From contig JABLXJ010000005.1 of assembly GCA_013178125.1 (NCBI GenBank), forward strand, positions 145,952-209,951: a stretch of DNA of 64,000 nucleotides. The letters are read 5' to 3'. The notes under the pieces were generated by a model. That model had not been told where the DNA came from, searched no databases, and saw only the letters and a list, made by a program, of their open reading frames with translations. Positions 37,702 through 42,715 of the stretch are shown here, piece after piece. Origin of the DNA: Bacillota bacterium. GTDB taxonomy: Bacteria; Bacillota; SHA-98; Ch115; JABLXJ01. The position numbers and the translations under genes are program-made. Position 1 is the first letter of the stretch. Each line of letters starts with the position of its first letter.

Positions 37702-38559
37702 CTAGAGCACCAGTGCTAGTATCCTTTCAAGATCCTCACTACTGTAGAATTCGATTTCGATCTTTCCCTTCTTCTTTCCGGGAAGGATGCGCACCTGCGT
37801 CCCCAGGGCGTGTTTGAGCCTATCCTCGATATCCAGCAGATTTGGATCAATACGCCTGACCCTTACCGGTGTTTCACGTGAAACATTACCTGGCCCCGCC
37901 CCGGATATGAGCCTCTTCACGAGCTCTTCTGTTTCTCGGACGGAGAGCTCCTCGCGGATTACCCTTTCACACACCGAACGCTGCAAGGCCTCATCCGCGA
38001 GCGCAAGCAGGGCACGAGCATGACCAACAGAAATTGTTTCACGTGAAACACTCTCTTGAATATCGGCAGGCAGGCTCAATAGCCGCAATGCATTAGCAAT
38101 AACAGGCCGGCTACGTCCCAACATTGCGGCAAGCTGTTCCTGCGTAAAGGAAAACTCGACGATGAGCCGCCGGTAGGCCTCGGCCTCCTCTATTGGGTTC
38201 AGGTCCTGGCGCTGGAGGTTCTCCACCAGCGCTATCTGGATCATCGCCTTGTCGTCCAAATCGCGGAGGATCACAGGAACCTTCTTCAAACCAGCCTGCC
38301 TTGCCGCCCGCCACCTCCGCTCGCCGACAACAATCTGATACCCTTCTCCAACTCGCCTTACGATGAGGGGCTGCACAATCCCATGCAACCGAATAGACTC
38401 GCTCAGCTCGCGGAGCTTCTCCGGGTCGAAATCCCTCCGCGGTTGGTAAGGATTCGGGGCCAAGAGATCGATCCCGACCTCCACCACGCCCTCTTCGCCT
38501 TCCGGGTTAGCGTCAGGAATCAGCGCCCTTAACCCCTTCCCAAGTCCTCCCTTAGCCAC
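37702..38559 (-). CDS. parB: Chromosome-partitioning protein ParB (Spo0J)
   Basis: 285 residues. ParB N-terminal CTPase domain ('LLAPNPYQPRRDFDPEKLRE', 'IVVGERRWRAARQAGL', 'ALVENLQRQDLNPIEEAEAY'), the central helix-turn-helix ('FTQEQLAAMLGRSRPVIANA') and a C-terminal dimerisation domain. It loads at parS as a CTP-dependent sliding clamp and recruits SMC. Two perfect parS sites lie inside the gene. It is downstream of parA (5 bases) and follows noc in one minus-strand cluster. Confidence 0.97.
   Translation of the reverse strand: MAKGGLGKGLRALIPDANPEGEEGVVEVGIDLLAPNPYQPRRDFDPEKLRELSESIRLHGIVQPLIVRRVGEGYQIVVGERRWRAARQAGLKKVPVILRDLDDKAMIQIALVENLQRQDLNPIEEAEAYRRLIVEFSFTQEQLAAMLGRSRPVIANALRLLSLPADIQESVSRETISVGHARALLALADEALQRSVCERVIREELSVRETEELVKRLISGAGPGNVSRETPVRVRRIDPNLLDIEDRLKHALGTQVRILPGKKKGKIEIEFYSSEDLERILALVL
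37870..37885. promoter_or_regulatory. parS site 1
   Basis: TGTTTCACGTGAAACA, a perfect palindromic parS within parB. It lies about 12 kb from the oriC region, as typical for origin-proximal parS. Confidence 0.95.
38035..38050. promoter_or_regulatory. parS site 2
   Basis: A second perfect TGTTTCACGTGAAACA, 165 bases from the first, also inside parB. Confidence 0.95.
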
Positions 38560-38563
38560 CTAA

Positions 38564-39319
38564 TCAACCCTGCCCTTCCGCTTGCTGAAAATCGCCGTGC
38601 CCCTCGCCCGCGCCAGCCATCTCGACCGCAAGCGCCCTGTAAGCCTCTGCACCTTTCGATTTGTCATCATAGAGTATGATGGGCTTTCCATAGCTCGGCG
38701 CCTCACTCAATTTAACATTACGCGGTATCACCGTATTATAAACCTTCTCCTTGAAAAATTGCCTGACCTCCTCACTGACCTGCTGCGAAAGGTTCGTACG
38801 TGAATCGTACATCGTCAAAAGGACACCCTCGATATGAAGCCCGGGGTTGAGATGCTTCTGCACCAGGCTGACAGTATTCAAGAGCTGGCTCAACCCTTCA
38901 AGGGCATAGTACTCACACTGAATCGGAACCAGCACGCTGTCTGCGGCTGTCAGGGCATTCAGCGTCAGGAGGCCCAGGGATGGGGGACAGTCGATCAGAA
39001 CGTAATCATATCGCCCACGAACCTCCTCCAGCGCCCTGCGGAGGCGAACCTCCCTCGACATAACAGGGACGAGCTCAATCTCCGCCCCCGCGAGCCGTAT
39101 GGTTGCAGGCACGAGATCGAGGCCGCCGACCTCGGTTTTCACGGTCAAAGCCGACACCGGGCGCTCGCTTATAATCGCATCATATATACAGGCTTTTATC
39201 TGACCCTTATCGACGCCCGCCCCGCTTGTAGCGTTCCCCTGCGGGTCTACATCAACCAGGAGCACCCGCCGGCCCAGCACAGCCAGGCAGGCTCCAAGAT
39301 TTACCGCTGTTGTACTCTT
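38564..39319 (-). CDS. parA: Chromosome-partitioning ATPase ParA (Soj), exon 2
   Basis: The main part of parA: 251 residues beginning KSTTAVNLGACLAVLG, followed by 'LLVDVDPQGNATSG', the Walker B-like 'YDYVLIDCPPSLGLLTLNAL' and 'VIPRNVKLSEAPSYGKPI'. It has no start or Walker A glycine loop of its own; these are supplied by exon 1 (41501-41545) once the group II intron is removed. The joined protein is 266 residues and reads through an intact KGGVGKSTT deviant Walker A. A frame reading upstream of 39319 into the intron gives nonsense (LCALCLLY). ParA works with ParB in origin segregation and in controlling DnaA and sporulation. Confidence 0.95.
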   Translation of the reverse strand, partial: KSTTAVNLGACLAVLGRRVLLVDVDPQGNATSGAGVDKGQIKACIYDAIISERPVSALTVKTEVGGLDLVPATIRLAGAEIELVPVMSREVRLRRALEEVRGRYDYVLIDCPPSLGLLTLNALTAADSVLVPIQCEYYALEGLSQLLNTVSLVQKHLNPGLHIEGVLLTMYDSRTNLSQQVSEEVRQFFKEKVYNTVIPRNVKLSEAPSYGKPIILYDDKSKGAEAYRALAVEMAGAGEGHGDFQQAEGQG

Positions 39320-39394
39320 GTAGAGTAGGCACAGAGCGCACAGCGTCACCCGGCCCCATAGGCCGTGTGACCGTGTCTCCCCATGCCCCTCTCC

Positions 39395-39428
39395 GAACCG
39401 GACGTGCGCCTTTCGACGCATCCGGCTC
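39395..39428 (-). ncRNA. Group II intron domain V
   Basis: 34 nt on the minus strand: GAGCCGGATGCG, a GTCGAAAGGC-type tetraloop, and GCACGTCCGGTTC closing the stem. It has the catalytic AGC triad near the 5' side, the two-base bulge region and a GAAA tetraloop, all canonical. Domain VI, with the 3' splice site, follows over about 74 nt and is longer than usual. Confidence 0.92.
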
Positions 39429-39491
39429 TCCGGAACTGCGCTCGCCTCTCCGCCGTCATCGATGATCTGCCCGCCTCTTGCCGTGCATGCG

Positions 39492-40835
39492 CTAGCACCC
39501 GGAGGACGCCCGGCGGTGAACCAGCCTATCAAGCAAGACAGGTCCCCTGTGCCCCTCCACAATTATACCTTGCCTCGAACAGGATCTCCTGAAAACAGTC
39601 CCTCTGGGGATTCCAGGGTGCCGCTTACACAGTAACGCGAATACCTTCCGGCGCGTCCAGCTATCAAGATAAGAAAACGTCCTCCTGCTGCTGGCAGCCC
39701 CGAAACAAACCCTCCACTCCTCGATAAGCTCATTGATCGCCGTGATAACCTCACCCAGATCCTTGAGTGGAGAACCCTTCAGGCTGGTGAGCCTCCTGAC
39801 CCGGGACTTGTAGTAGCTTATCGCCGACTTCCCGGGGTAGACCGTGAATCCCACCCCGTTTCTCCCTCCCCGGCGCCTGAAGCAGAATCCGAGAAATTCC
39901 AACTCCGGCTCGCGGGGCACGATATCCAGCACAACCTTCTCCGGGCTCAGTCCAAGCTCGGATACTAGATATTCGCGAGCCTGGGTTACGACGGCCTCAA
40001 GCTCATCACGAGTTCCCGGGACCAGGAGCATGAGGAAACCACCATAATGAAACGACCGGGCAGGATAATACCGTGACATCTTCCCGAGCCACTCTTCGAA
40101 TATGCTGAGGAGAATCCCAGCCAACAAGGCATGTAGACCCTCACCGGCCACAGATACGGGGCTAGCAACACCCAGGCAATCACCCCGCCAGGCAGCTCCC
40201 CGGGTCTTTAGGACACCAGTCAGGACCTCAATAAATCTCCTATCCTTTACACGTGACTTCAGCGCCCTAATCACTGACTTGCGCGCAGCACCTGATGCCC
40301 AGCCGCCGAGCCCCCCCTGGATGACCCACTCGCACGAGGCCCAGGGGCCGGCCTCAAAGCTCGCTCTGATCTCCTTCGCAATATTCCGCACCCTCCAGGC
40401 CCTCCGCAATCTCCCGGGCATATCCCACAACTCCGGGGGCCCAGCCCATAACACCGGGGACCTGGCCGCAGCGCCCGCATATAAAGGCTCGAGCACCATG
40501 CAGAGGGCTTCTTCCAGGACGCACCAGTGAATATCATCGAAACCCCATTCCAGCGCACCACTGCCGGTGCCACCCACGGGGTCCTCTTCCTCGCGCGCCC
40601 TAGCCACGGCGGCCAGAACCCGCCCAACAACCCCATCCACATATCTCAAACCCGGCCCATCCCCGAGAACGGCCCGGGCCGCCCGCTCAATCCAGGGCCG
40701 CCATTTCAATATTCCGTAAAGATCGGTAAACCTCTCCCCCTCCGGCATACAAAGAGACGCACGGTAGAGACTCCTCTGCTTTCGAGTTACGGGGTCATCC
40801 ACCTCAACGGTGACACCTCTTGCCGATGCATGCAC
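39492..40835 (-). CDS. Group II intron-encoded maturase with inactivated reverse transcriptase
   Basis: 447 residues. Intron-protein landmarks are in order: RT0 'RFTDLYGILKWRPWIERAAR', RT2-like 'EEALCMVLEPLY' (109-119), RT3-like 'CEWVIQGGLGGW' and 'SRVKDRRFIEVLTG', RT4-like 'GEGLHALLAGILL', RT5 'FHYGGFLML', RT7 'LEFLGFCFRRRG' and the thumb/X domain (342-400, 'YYKSRVRRLTSLKG', 'TFSYLDSWTRRKVFALLCKR'). The catalytic residues are gone: the GD of RT3 is GG (175) and YADD is YGGF (264-267); the RT4 PQGG is also missing. No HNH endonuclease follows. The frame is nevertheless open. Expected role: assisting splicing of its own intron only (inference). Confidence 0.85.
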   Translation of the reverse strand: MHASARGVTVEVDDPVTRKQRSLYRASLCMPEGERFTDLYGILKWRPWIERAARAVLGDGPGLRYVDGVVGRVLAAVARAREEEDPVGGTGSGALEWGFDDIHWCVLEEALCMVLEPLYAGAAARSPVLWAGPPELWDMPGRLRRAWRVRNIAKEIRASFEAGPWASCEWVIQGGLGGWASGAARKSVIRALKSRVKDRRFIEVLTGVLKTRGAAWRGDCLGVASPVSVAGEGLHALLAGILLSIFEEWLGKMSRYYPARSFHYGGFLMLLVPGTRDELEAVVTQAREYLVSELGLSPEKVVLDIVPREPELEFLGFCFRRRGGRNGVGFTVYPGKSAISYYKSRVRRLTSLKGSPLKDLGEVITAINELIEEWRVCFGAASSRRTFSYLDSWTRRKVFALLCKRHPGIPRGTVFRRSCSRQGIIVEGHRGPVLLDRLVHRRASSGC

Positions 40836-41500
40836 GGCTCAACGTCCCTCTACTTCCATGGAGTTTTCGCAGTTCCTGGGGTCCTTCGCCATGTGCCCCG
40901 CTTTCCAGGGCTCCGACTACTACGACCCCTCCGCCCCCACCTGGTGACCCTGTCACCACTATTCCCAGCGAGCCCATCCACGATGATATCGCCCGGCCGG
41001 GCTTCCATCAGGTCTCCCAGGCAGGTTCCCAGGTTCCATGCAGGACCCCTTCACACCAGACCTTAGGCCGCCCCTATGCCCATGCCGCCACAGGGAAACG
41101 GGCCCATCGTCCAACCTGTCCATCGTCCATATCCCCACCCCGGAGCTCCGCAGGCACGTAGGCCAAGCCCGCGCAGCTAACGGCGGCTCACCCGCATTCA
41201 CACGCCTCACGTGGCTCTTCATGCCCCGGGAGGACAAATGCGAAATGCGGGGCAAGGCGCTAAATGGGCTTTACACGGGGCTTCCTCGCGTAGCCATAGC
41301 CTGGATTCAGGCTCGCCCTCAGCTCACCATCCTGCCACCGGGATCGTGAGGTTCAGGCTTGTTCGATGGGCTCCGGAACGGGGCTCCTCTCGGAAACCCG
41401 CCCCGCCATCTCAGCCTTACCGGCGGAAACTCGCAACCCGCCGAAACCCGCCGGCATCCGGAATCCTACCGGCATGGCCCTACATAGCTTCCTGGCGCAC

Positions 41501-41545
41501 GCCCACGCCGCCTTTTTGATTGACAATGGCAATAACCTTGCTCAT
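41501..41545 (-). CDS. parA: ParA (Soj), exon 1
   Basis: Fifteen codons, MSKVIAIVNQKGGVG, starting at the ATG at 41545 with AAAGGTAACGG before it and only 10 bases after the noc stop. It ends exactly at the intron. It is too short to be found as a gene on its own and supplies the ParA N-terminal strand and the glycine-rich half of Walker A. Confidence 0.93.
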
Positions 41546-41555
41546 CCGTTACCTT

Positions 41556-42527
41556 TTAACTCCCTTCCTTTGACTCAGTCTTCTGCGGCTCCGCCTCAGA
41601 TCCCGCAGCTATCCTCGCCTTTACCCTCGCACCCGCCTCATGCGCAACCTGTGCCGCCATGGTGCTCAGGCTCTTCTTCGAGATGCGGATGCGCACCTCG
41701 AACCAGTCTTCGCGATCATCCTCGTCAACGGACACCCGGATACCTGTCGCCCTCAACTGCCTTACAACATCGCGAATTGAATTGAGGAATAGCCGGATAT
41801 CCTTAAAAGCCCTGACGACCACCCGCCCCTCCGGCGAGCCCTGCCGCCTGCCACTGGTTTTGAGCCTCTCCAACCTCCTTTCGATCAAGCGCTCCGTCTC
41901 GGCGACAGTCAAGTTATCCTTCAATACCCTATCCAGCATCTCCAGCTGGTCCTTCTCGCTGTCAAGCTTGAGAAGGGCGCGGGCGTGGCGTTCCGTGATT
42001 ATTTCCCGGGAAATACTCTCAATCACCCTGGGCGGGAGCTTCAAGAGCCGCAATTTGTTCGCGATTGTCGACTGCCCCTTTCCAAGCCTCCTGGCAAGGT
42101 CCTGCTGCGTCATGGCGAACTCCGTCATCAGGCGGTGGTATCCAGCCGCCTCTTCCAGGAAGTCCAGGTCGCGCCGCTGGAGATTTTCAATAAGGCAAAT
42201 CTCGGCGGCTTCCTGTGGGGCAATATCCTTGACAATGGCAGGTATCGTCTTCAAGCCTGCCAGCTTGCAGGCCCTCAGGCGGCGTTCTCCCACGATTAGC
42301 TCATATCTATCATCCTCGCCGTCGATCCGCTTCACCAGGACCGGCTGGATGACACCGTGCTCCAGGATGGACTGCGAAAGCTCCCTGAGGTCCTCCTCGC
42401 TGAATCTCACCCTGGGTTGGTAAGGGTTCGGCACAATCGAATCAACCGGGAGATCCTTGATAACGTCCCCCCCAACCTCGCCCTTCCCTTTTCGCAACCC
42501 AATGAATTGCGCAAAACCCCGTTTCAT
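41556..42527 (-). CDS. noc: Nucleoid occlusion protein Noc (ParB family)
   Basis: About 323 residues from the ATG at 42527. The frame is open to 42692, but 'MKRGFAQFIGLRKG' resembles the amphipathic membrane-targeting start of Bacillus Noc (MKHSFSRFFGL). A weakness is that the ribosome site there abuts the ATG; a GTG near 42578 with a strong G-rich site is an alternative. ParB/CTPase motifs 'IVPNPYQPRVRFSEEDLREL' and 'LIVGERRLRACKLAGL' and a helix-turn-helix ('MTQQDLARRLGKGQSTIANK') are present. An exact Noc-binding site within the gene supports Noc over a second ParB. Noc blocks division over the nucleoid. Confidence 0.88.
   Translation of the reverse strand: MKRGFAQFIGLRKGKGEVGGDVIKDLPVDSIVPNPYQPRVRFSEEDLRELSQSILEHGVIQPVLVKRIDGEDDRYELIVGERRLRACKLAGLKTIPAIVKDIAPQEAAEICLIENLQRRDLDFLEEAAGYHRLMTEFAMTQQDLARRLGKGQSTIANKLRLLKLPPRVIESISREIITERHARALLKLDSEKDQLEMLDRVLKDNLTVAETERLIERRLERLKTSGRRQGSPEGRVVVRAFKDIRLFLNSIRDVVRQLRATGIRVSVDEDDREDWFEVRIRISKKSLSTMAAQVAHEAGARVKARIAAGSEAEPQKTESKEGS
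42001..42014. promoter_or_regulatory. Noc-binding site (exact)
   Basis: ATTTCCCGGGAAAT, identical to the Bacillus Noc consensus, flanked by T and A to make a 16-bp palindrome. It is within noc. Confidence 0.85.
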
Positions 42528-42715
42528 CCCCTCGCGTGGCGCAAAACCCAGCCCCTGGCATCCCGCAGAAAGCGCCACTCCCCCCTCCCCTCCCGCCTGG
42601 AACCCACATGCAGCGCATGCCAACAGCGGGCATGTGAATCCGCCGAGGGAAGCCTTCTTAGTCCAAATGGAATCCGACCCAACTTGGTCCAAACAAGAAG
42701 TTCGTCAAAGATTCT

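Follow-up and report, generated by a model that had tools for sequence, protein, structure and literature searches.

A group II intron encoding a predicted reverse transcriptase-dead maturase interrupts the P-loop of parA in an uncultured Bacillota bacterium

In an uncultured bacterium of the Bacillota, the chromosome-partition gene parA is interrupted within its Walker A motif (P-loop), and the evidence supports the identification of the interruption as a group II intron. The locus lies in a 64-kb stretch of DNA, which was analyzed as a whole and is called the window below; its minus strand carries noc, parA exon 1, the intron, parA exon 2, and parB in this order (Table 1). Once joined, the exons encode a ParA of 266 residues whose Walker A motif is split as KGGVG^KST. 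The joined protein contains the KGGxGKS/T signature, is encoded between noc and parB, and matches AAA_31 (3e-60). The gap between noc and parA is 10 bases, as a first-pass annotation of this DNA had it, and the gap between the parA stop codon and parB is 4 bases (38560–38563) rather than the 5 given there. With a probability of about 0.87, the intron is spliced out with the help of its own maturase, which is dead as a reverse transcriptase (RT), so that the intron is likely immobile.

The intron begins with GTGCGCC and ends with CTAC, in agreement with the GUGYG/AY consensus, and its ends are flush with the exon junction. This junction is fixed because 14 intronless relatives of the same class provide the empty site. 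The ParA search in this class covered 17 genomes. Two of them, the window genome and G001, the other genome of its genus, carry the intron and match only from residue 16; 14 are intronless, and one (G016, 81% complete) gave no close ParA match. In the 14 intronless genomes, ParA aligns from residue 1 with 71–78% identity, and KGGVGKSTTA is read without interruption in all of them; these matches run to residue 252–260, and 11 of the 14 show one or two internal stops. Moreover, the Rfam model Intron_gpII (RF00029) matches positions 39320–39430 of the minus strand with 63.8 bits (cut-off 40, E 3.2e-10). This is the sole match at the gathering threshold in the window, and its 3′ end coincides exactly with the predicted splice site. 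Collectively, the exon translations, the boundaries of the 2,181-base insertion, the covariance-model match, and the empty sites bear out the first-pass claim that a group II intron splits the Walker A motif of parA.

Parts of domains I, III, V, and VI were identified in the window intron, while a full consensus fold was obtained only from five introns without an open reading frame (ORF) in another class, which are described below. Domains V and VI form their helices in the window species as well as in G001, and the A at position −7 is unpaired in this two-sequence fold; an A occupies this position in all nine introns examined. Additionally, the final bases of exon 1 are assigned by complementarity as a putative intron-binding site 1 (IBS1), which would pair with GCCTAC as exon-binding site 1 (EBS1). 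GCCTAC is found in 8/8 introns tested and, judged by complementarity only, forms 6/6 pairs in seven and 5/6 in Heliorestis convoluta. GCCTAA in GCGGCCTAAGG, the initial choice for EBS1, was abandoned because GCCTAC at the hairpin tip pairs at all six positions and is common to the introns of other groups. For the EBS2 candidate, CGCCT is present in the five ORF-less introns, and no counterpart was found in the H. convoluta intron among four spellings tried. The closing helix of domain I reads CCAGG/CCTGG in the window, CCGGG/CCCGG in the five-genome class, and TCCGT/ACGGA in Heliorestis, and would change on both sides together across the groups. This covariation is suggestive only, because the 3′ strands were chosen among exact copies (11 of CCTGG in the window intron and two in Heliorestis); the window copy was picked since GAAC follows it, as in the ORF-less introns.

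Since the splice site is located within the P-loop, an unspliced message can give no ATPase, and parA would depend on splicing of the intron. This parA is the only close one in the window genome (assembly 98.4% complete); five further ParA-like matches are 23–48% identical, with alignments that span part or most of the query. Upstream, the reading frame of exon 2 has no stop as far as 39562 (38564–39562, minus), a stretch that crosses domains V and VI, and could yield 332 residues from a TTG. Translation of a shorter ParA from this start inside the intron deserves almost no credence: the product would be without the first strand and the KGGVG of the P-loop, and in G001 a stop closes the frame 31 codons upstream of exon 2. 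ATP binding by the known mechanism requires the first strand as well as KGGVG. The position of the splice site, together with the persistence of the arrangement in three groups of Bacillota, would also agree with a regulated switch, in which the amount of ParA available for segregation or sporulation is set by how efficiently the intron is spliced. We regard such a switch as unlikely, as a selfish intron would also be well sheltered at a conserved site, where imprecise removal carries a high cost; a settled, constitutively spliced intron is the simpler reading.

The first-pass annotation recognized the intron but overlooked the protein that it encodes and the state of that protein. In this intron-encoded protein (IEP), all three catalytic aspartates are gone by alignment, in the window species as well as in G001; we take the aspartates at the aligned positions of active RTs to be the catalytic residues. 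The score against TIGR04416, the RT of mobile group II introns, is 48.3 bits, far below the curated cut-off of 300, and the domain search returned no RVT_1 match. The RT motifs are lost, domain X is kept, and the ORF is intact, which are the hallmarks of a degenerate IEP. A structure model predicts an RT-like fold. Collectively, the IEP appears to be RT-dead with its maturase domain kept, and maturase activity is predicted. With the loss of the RT active site, the intron has likely become immobile.

The intron occupies the identical parA base in both genomes of the genus, and the two introns differ by 23–28% at the DNA level; the intron is therefore old. In G001, the part of the intron that runs from the closing helix of domain I to domain III (L004:1033-1395) has ~270 bases more than in the window. 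Bacterial group II introns act mainly as mobile DNAs, according to Zimmerly and Semper 2015 (PMC4424553), and the RT-like fold predicted for the IEP would suit an ordinary retroelement that landed in parA recently and still moves. This is very improbable given the age of the insertion and the absence of the catalytic aspartates in both species. Furthermore, the genome has one further group II match, which has no long ORF (150 of 207 candidates scored), and a search of 5.8 billion protein sequences at E 1e-5 gave only the window and G001 IEPs among 7,990 candidates scored. In 61 genomes, 11 matched the IEP at E ≤0.001, and the sole close one beyond the window's own was G001 (63% identical, E 7.6e-170; next best 25%, E 8.8e-10). 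In a plasmid collection, 1,522 records match the intron, none over >80% of it, and the 20 listed cover 3–4% in short pieces. No IEP relative was found in viral contigs with two short N-terminal peptide patterns, and similar patterns recovered G001 as the one relative in genome contigs; both scans are blind to relatives without those N-terminal words. In the window genome, no other maturase gene was found. Its second group II intron (L002, G000:C6:95367-95484) follows a tRNA gene and, provided that its 5′ end is correctly placed, measures ~557 nt; the maturase of the parA intron could act on it in trans. The sole RVT_1 match of this genome (L019, G000:C13:63008-63574) is a 321-residue protein with YADD that adjoins a 328-residue ORF; it is presumably retron-like and possibly part of a defense system.

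To reveal the selection acting on the locus, Nei-Gojobori counts were made from two sequences, the window and G001, with parB and noc covered only in part. Exon 1 is identical at 15/15 residues, and its five base changes are all at third positions. The dN/dS ratios are 0.043 for ParA exon 2, 0.060 for parB, 0.149 for noc, and 0.244 for the IEP, but they are rough because dS is near 1. The pN/pS of the IEP is 0.382 (bootstrap 0.32–0.45). Along the IEP, dN/dS is 0.107 for residues 1–50, 0.264 for 51–140, 0.172 for 141–205, 0.409 for 206–262, 0.284 for 263–330, 0.111 for the maturase domain (331–417), and 0.443 for the C-terminus, so that the maturase domain and the N-terminus are the best kept parts. 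In simulations with 30% random base changes, a mean of 12 stops is expected in the IEP, and 0/2000 copies stayed open. In the simplest reading, RT function would have been lost before the two species parted, with the rest of the IEP staying under selection, and the parA intron would be a vertically inherited, maturase-only element. A broken parA, in which splicing has ceased and the lineage survives with no ParA, is hardly probable: splicing is predicted from DNA, and some bacteria can dispense with ParA, yet exon 2 is strongly constrained, exon 1 shows no replacement change, and the ribozyme core and the exon-pairing elements are kept.

Several points weigh against a spliced, maturase-assisted, and likely immobile intron. 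Both splicing itself and the binding of intron RNA by an RT-dead maturase of this lineage are things that we infer from sequence. The selection ratios come from two sequences with dS near 1, the IEP is under weaker selection than noc or ParA, and the ratio of 0.41 at residues 206–262 leaves room for slow decay. The assemblies consist of many contigs (54 for the window genome and about 160 for G001, a metagenome assembly), and the alignment given to the structure model held active RTs, which favors an RT fold. In Heliorestis acidaminivorans, the RYEDQ of the related case below keeps one of the two YADD aspartates. Finally, since ParA (Soj) of bacteria can often be dispensed with, a parA that requires splicing would not necessarily make splicing vital. 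In the splicing model that we prefer, noc, parA, and parB would be transcribed together, and the maturase would bind the intron RNA. The branch would form at the A at position −7, and ligation of the exons, joining GGCGTGGGC to AAGAGTACA, would give the 266-residue ParA. Retrohoming would have been lost.

The site is not confined to this genus. A phylum survey of 398 genomes for Walker A codons followed by GTGYG, with the reversed pattern as control, gave 10 matches and none on the control; introns with other starts and P-loops spelled differently escape the pattern, so this count is a lower bound. The nine regions outside the window comprise six new parA cases, in which exon 2 starts from residue 16 and a domain V match lies at the junction, G001 as a seventh, and two chance matches outside parA (G385 and G315), which were discarded. 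A survey repeated from another center matched 9/397, in nearly the same genomes and at no new place. An intron at the same base is thus present in at least nine genomes of three families of Bacillota. The rarity proposed by the first-pass annotation is supported, but the site is not unique, being occupied in three separate groups.

In the order of G308, 2/9 genomes carry the intron, and both belong to one genus, as H. convoluta and H. acidaminivorans. Members of Heliorestis are cultured. The Heliorestis intron measures 1,812 nt (L070:1827-3638 in H. convoluta) and encodes proteins of 386 and 383 residues. In these proteins, RYADD is replaced by RYEEN (H. convoluta) and RYEDQ (H. acidaminivorans), and both have Asn where the first catalytic Asp would be. 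Their maturase domain is of the Intron_maturas2 type, whereas that of the window IEP is of the GIIM type. Between the two species, pN/pS is 0.489 for the IEP and 0.128 for parA exon 2, with pS near 0.7 and close to saturation. The introns of the three groups align over short stretches only. From the presence of two maturase types and of relatives without the intron, we argue that the introns would have reached this base separately in the three groups; one old gain with many losses is still formally admissible.

The third group is a class represented by five genomes (family f9), all of which carry an intron at the same parA base. These introns measure 507–527 nt, their longest frame is 34–66 codons from stop to stop, and no protein is encoded. 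They fold as group II introns, and in 36/162 pairs at least one sequence carries changes of both partners. The ORF-less introns, as well as the faster evolution of the window IEP relative to host genes, raise the question of whether the window ribozyme splices alone or with host factors while its IEP does something else or decays slowly. We give this a minor chance; the maturase domain and N-terminus are the best kept IEP parts, the ORF has stayed open, and all five ORF-less genomes have a GIIM maturase elsewhere, with one or two RT-less maturase frames per genome. In all five, the recA gene contains 2–4 group II introns (L118 in G022, L119 in G139, L120 in G106, L121 in G068, and L122 in G168), at partly different places after E. 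coli residues ~98, 125, 167, 208, and 218; a maturase encoded in a recA intron of this class has 313 residues. The class II ribonucleotide reductase gene nrdJ has one group II intron in G022 (L123) and two in G139 (L124), with one intron encoding a mini-maturase of 258–272 residues without an RT domain match; domain V matches of the same kind also occur in G068 and G106. These RT-less maturases in recA and nrdJ introns would represent an organelle-like state.

The history might have begun with a mobile intron that homed into the highly conserved Walker A DNA and then lost its RT, splicing being the one selected function left. The same taming would have occurred separately in Heliorestis and would have gone further in the third group, where the protein is lost and the recA and nrdJ intron maturases could act in trans. 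With some reserve, we favor the view that the parA P-loop has repeatedly sheltered group II introns, which become fixed there as organelle-like, splicing-only elements, and that the three groups show grades from an RT-dead cis maturase to no protein with mini-maturases in trans. If so, they would be free-living systems in which to follow how selfish group II introns gave way to shared trans-acting splicing machinery. Such machinery is thought to have preceded the spliceosome. A bacterial testbed that includes Heliorestis might reveal how a retroelement is tamed and turned into a splicing factor, whether several introns can come to share one maturase, and whether a gene of the cell cycle can persist when its expression relies on a ribozyme. 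The case is stronger than first noted, because a maturase-only, apparently vertically inherited intron occupies a site common to three groups; the inheritance and the ORF-less versions, like the dead RT in the 447-residue ORF, had been missed.

Among the closest known systems is the RT-like domain of Prp8 in the spliceosome. Chee and Takami reportedly described in 2005 a group II intron in recA of Geobacillus kaustophilus, which is likewise a DNA-maintenance gene, but a different one. Among the matches listed in a literature search, which mostly did not cover subscription journals, no title or abstract start dealt with a parA or soj gene that carries a group II intron. Zimmerly and Semper 2015 describe degenerate IEPs as rare in bacteria, with O.i.I2 in radC of Oceanobacillus iheyensis as the sole known example (PMC4424553). 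Similar to the parA intron, O.i.I2 lies in a chromosomal gene and has an ML-class IEP without YADD and other motifs (PMC4424553). In contrast, its gene and site are different, and the likeness is one of description, not sequence; for the parA intron, a second species points to inheritance and selection, and two further clades occupy the site. According to the same source, chloroplast MatK of the trnK intron, which lies in an essential gene, is an IEP with RT motifs lost and domain X kept; MatK is plastid-borne and binds several introns (PMC4424553). This likeness is also by description, not sequence. Unlike MatK, the parA IEP most likely serves its own intron, and it matches GIIM with no PF01348 match. 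ORF-less introns are rare and nearly always accompanied by a related IEP in the genome, and C.te.I1 and other ORF-less bacterial introns resemble those of the five-genome class; the C.te.I1 genome is without an IEP-related gene (PMC4424553), whereas each of the five genomes has RT-less maturase frames.

Table 1. Features of the parA locus and its intron in the window
Feature	Position	Strand	Description
noc, upstream gene	41556-42692	minus	TIGR04285 313.9 bits, just below cut-off 315; ParB domains
parA exon 1	41501-41545	minus	15 codons, translation MSKVIAIVNQKGGVG
group II intron	39320-41500	minus	2,181 nt, between exons of parA
parA exon 2	38564-39319	minus	251 codons + stop, starts KSTTAVN
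parB, downstream gene	37702-38559	minus	domain search
IBS1 GTGGGC (putative)	41501-41506	minus	final six bases of exon 1; assigned by complementarity
domain I closing helix	5′ strand CCAGG 41491-41495; 3′ strand taken as CCTGG 41029-41033	minus	
EBS2 candidate CGCCTT	41254-41259	minus	would pair with AAGGCG 41509-41514 of exon 1
EBS1 GCCTAC (putative)	41158-41163	minus	tip of predicted hairpin; 6/6 pairs with IBS1, one G-U
domain III	40875-40937	minus	54-56 bases align at 75-78% with 4/5 ORF-less introns
IEP	39492-40835	minus	447 residues, GTG start; predicted RT fold without catalytic Asp, maturase domain kept
Gly175 codon	40311-40313	minus	place of first catalytic Asp of active group II RTs; Arg in G001
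YGGF codons, residues 264-267	40035-40046	minus	YADD place of active RTs; YGGS in G001
maturase domain GIIM (PF08388)	39585-39809	minus	residues 343-417; 33.4 bits, cut-off 23
domain V	39394-39430	minus	Rfam match and pairing
predicted branch-point A	39326	minus	7th base from intron 3′ end, unpaired in domain VI

Further short group II IEPs were encountered. P0035 has RYNTS in place of YADD, and P0016 of Thermoflavimicrobium dichotomicum has RHVDD and a weak RVT_1 match.

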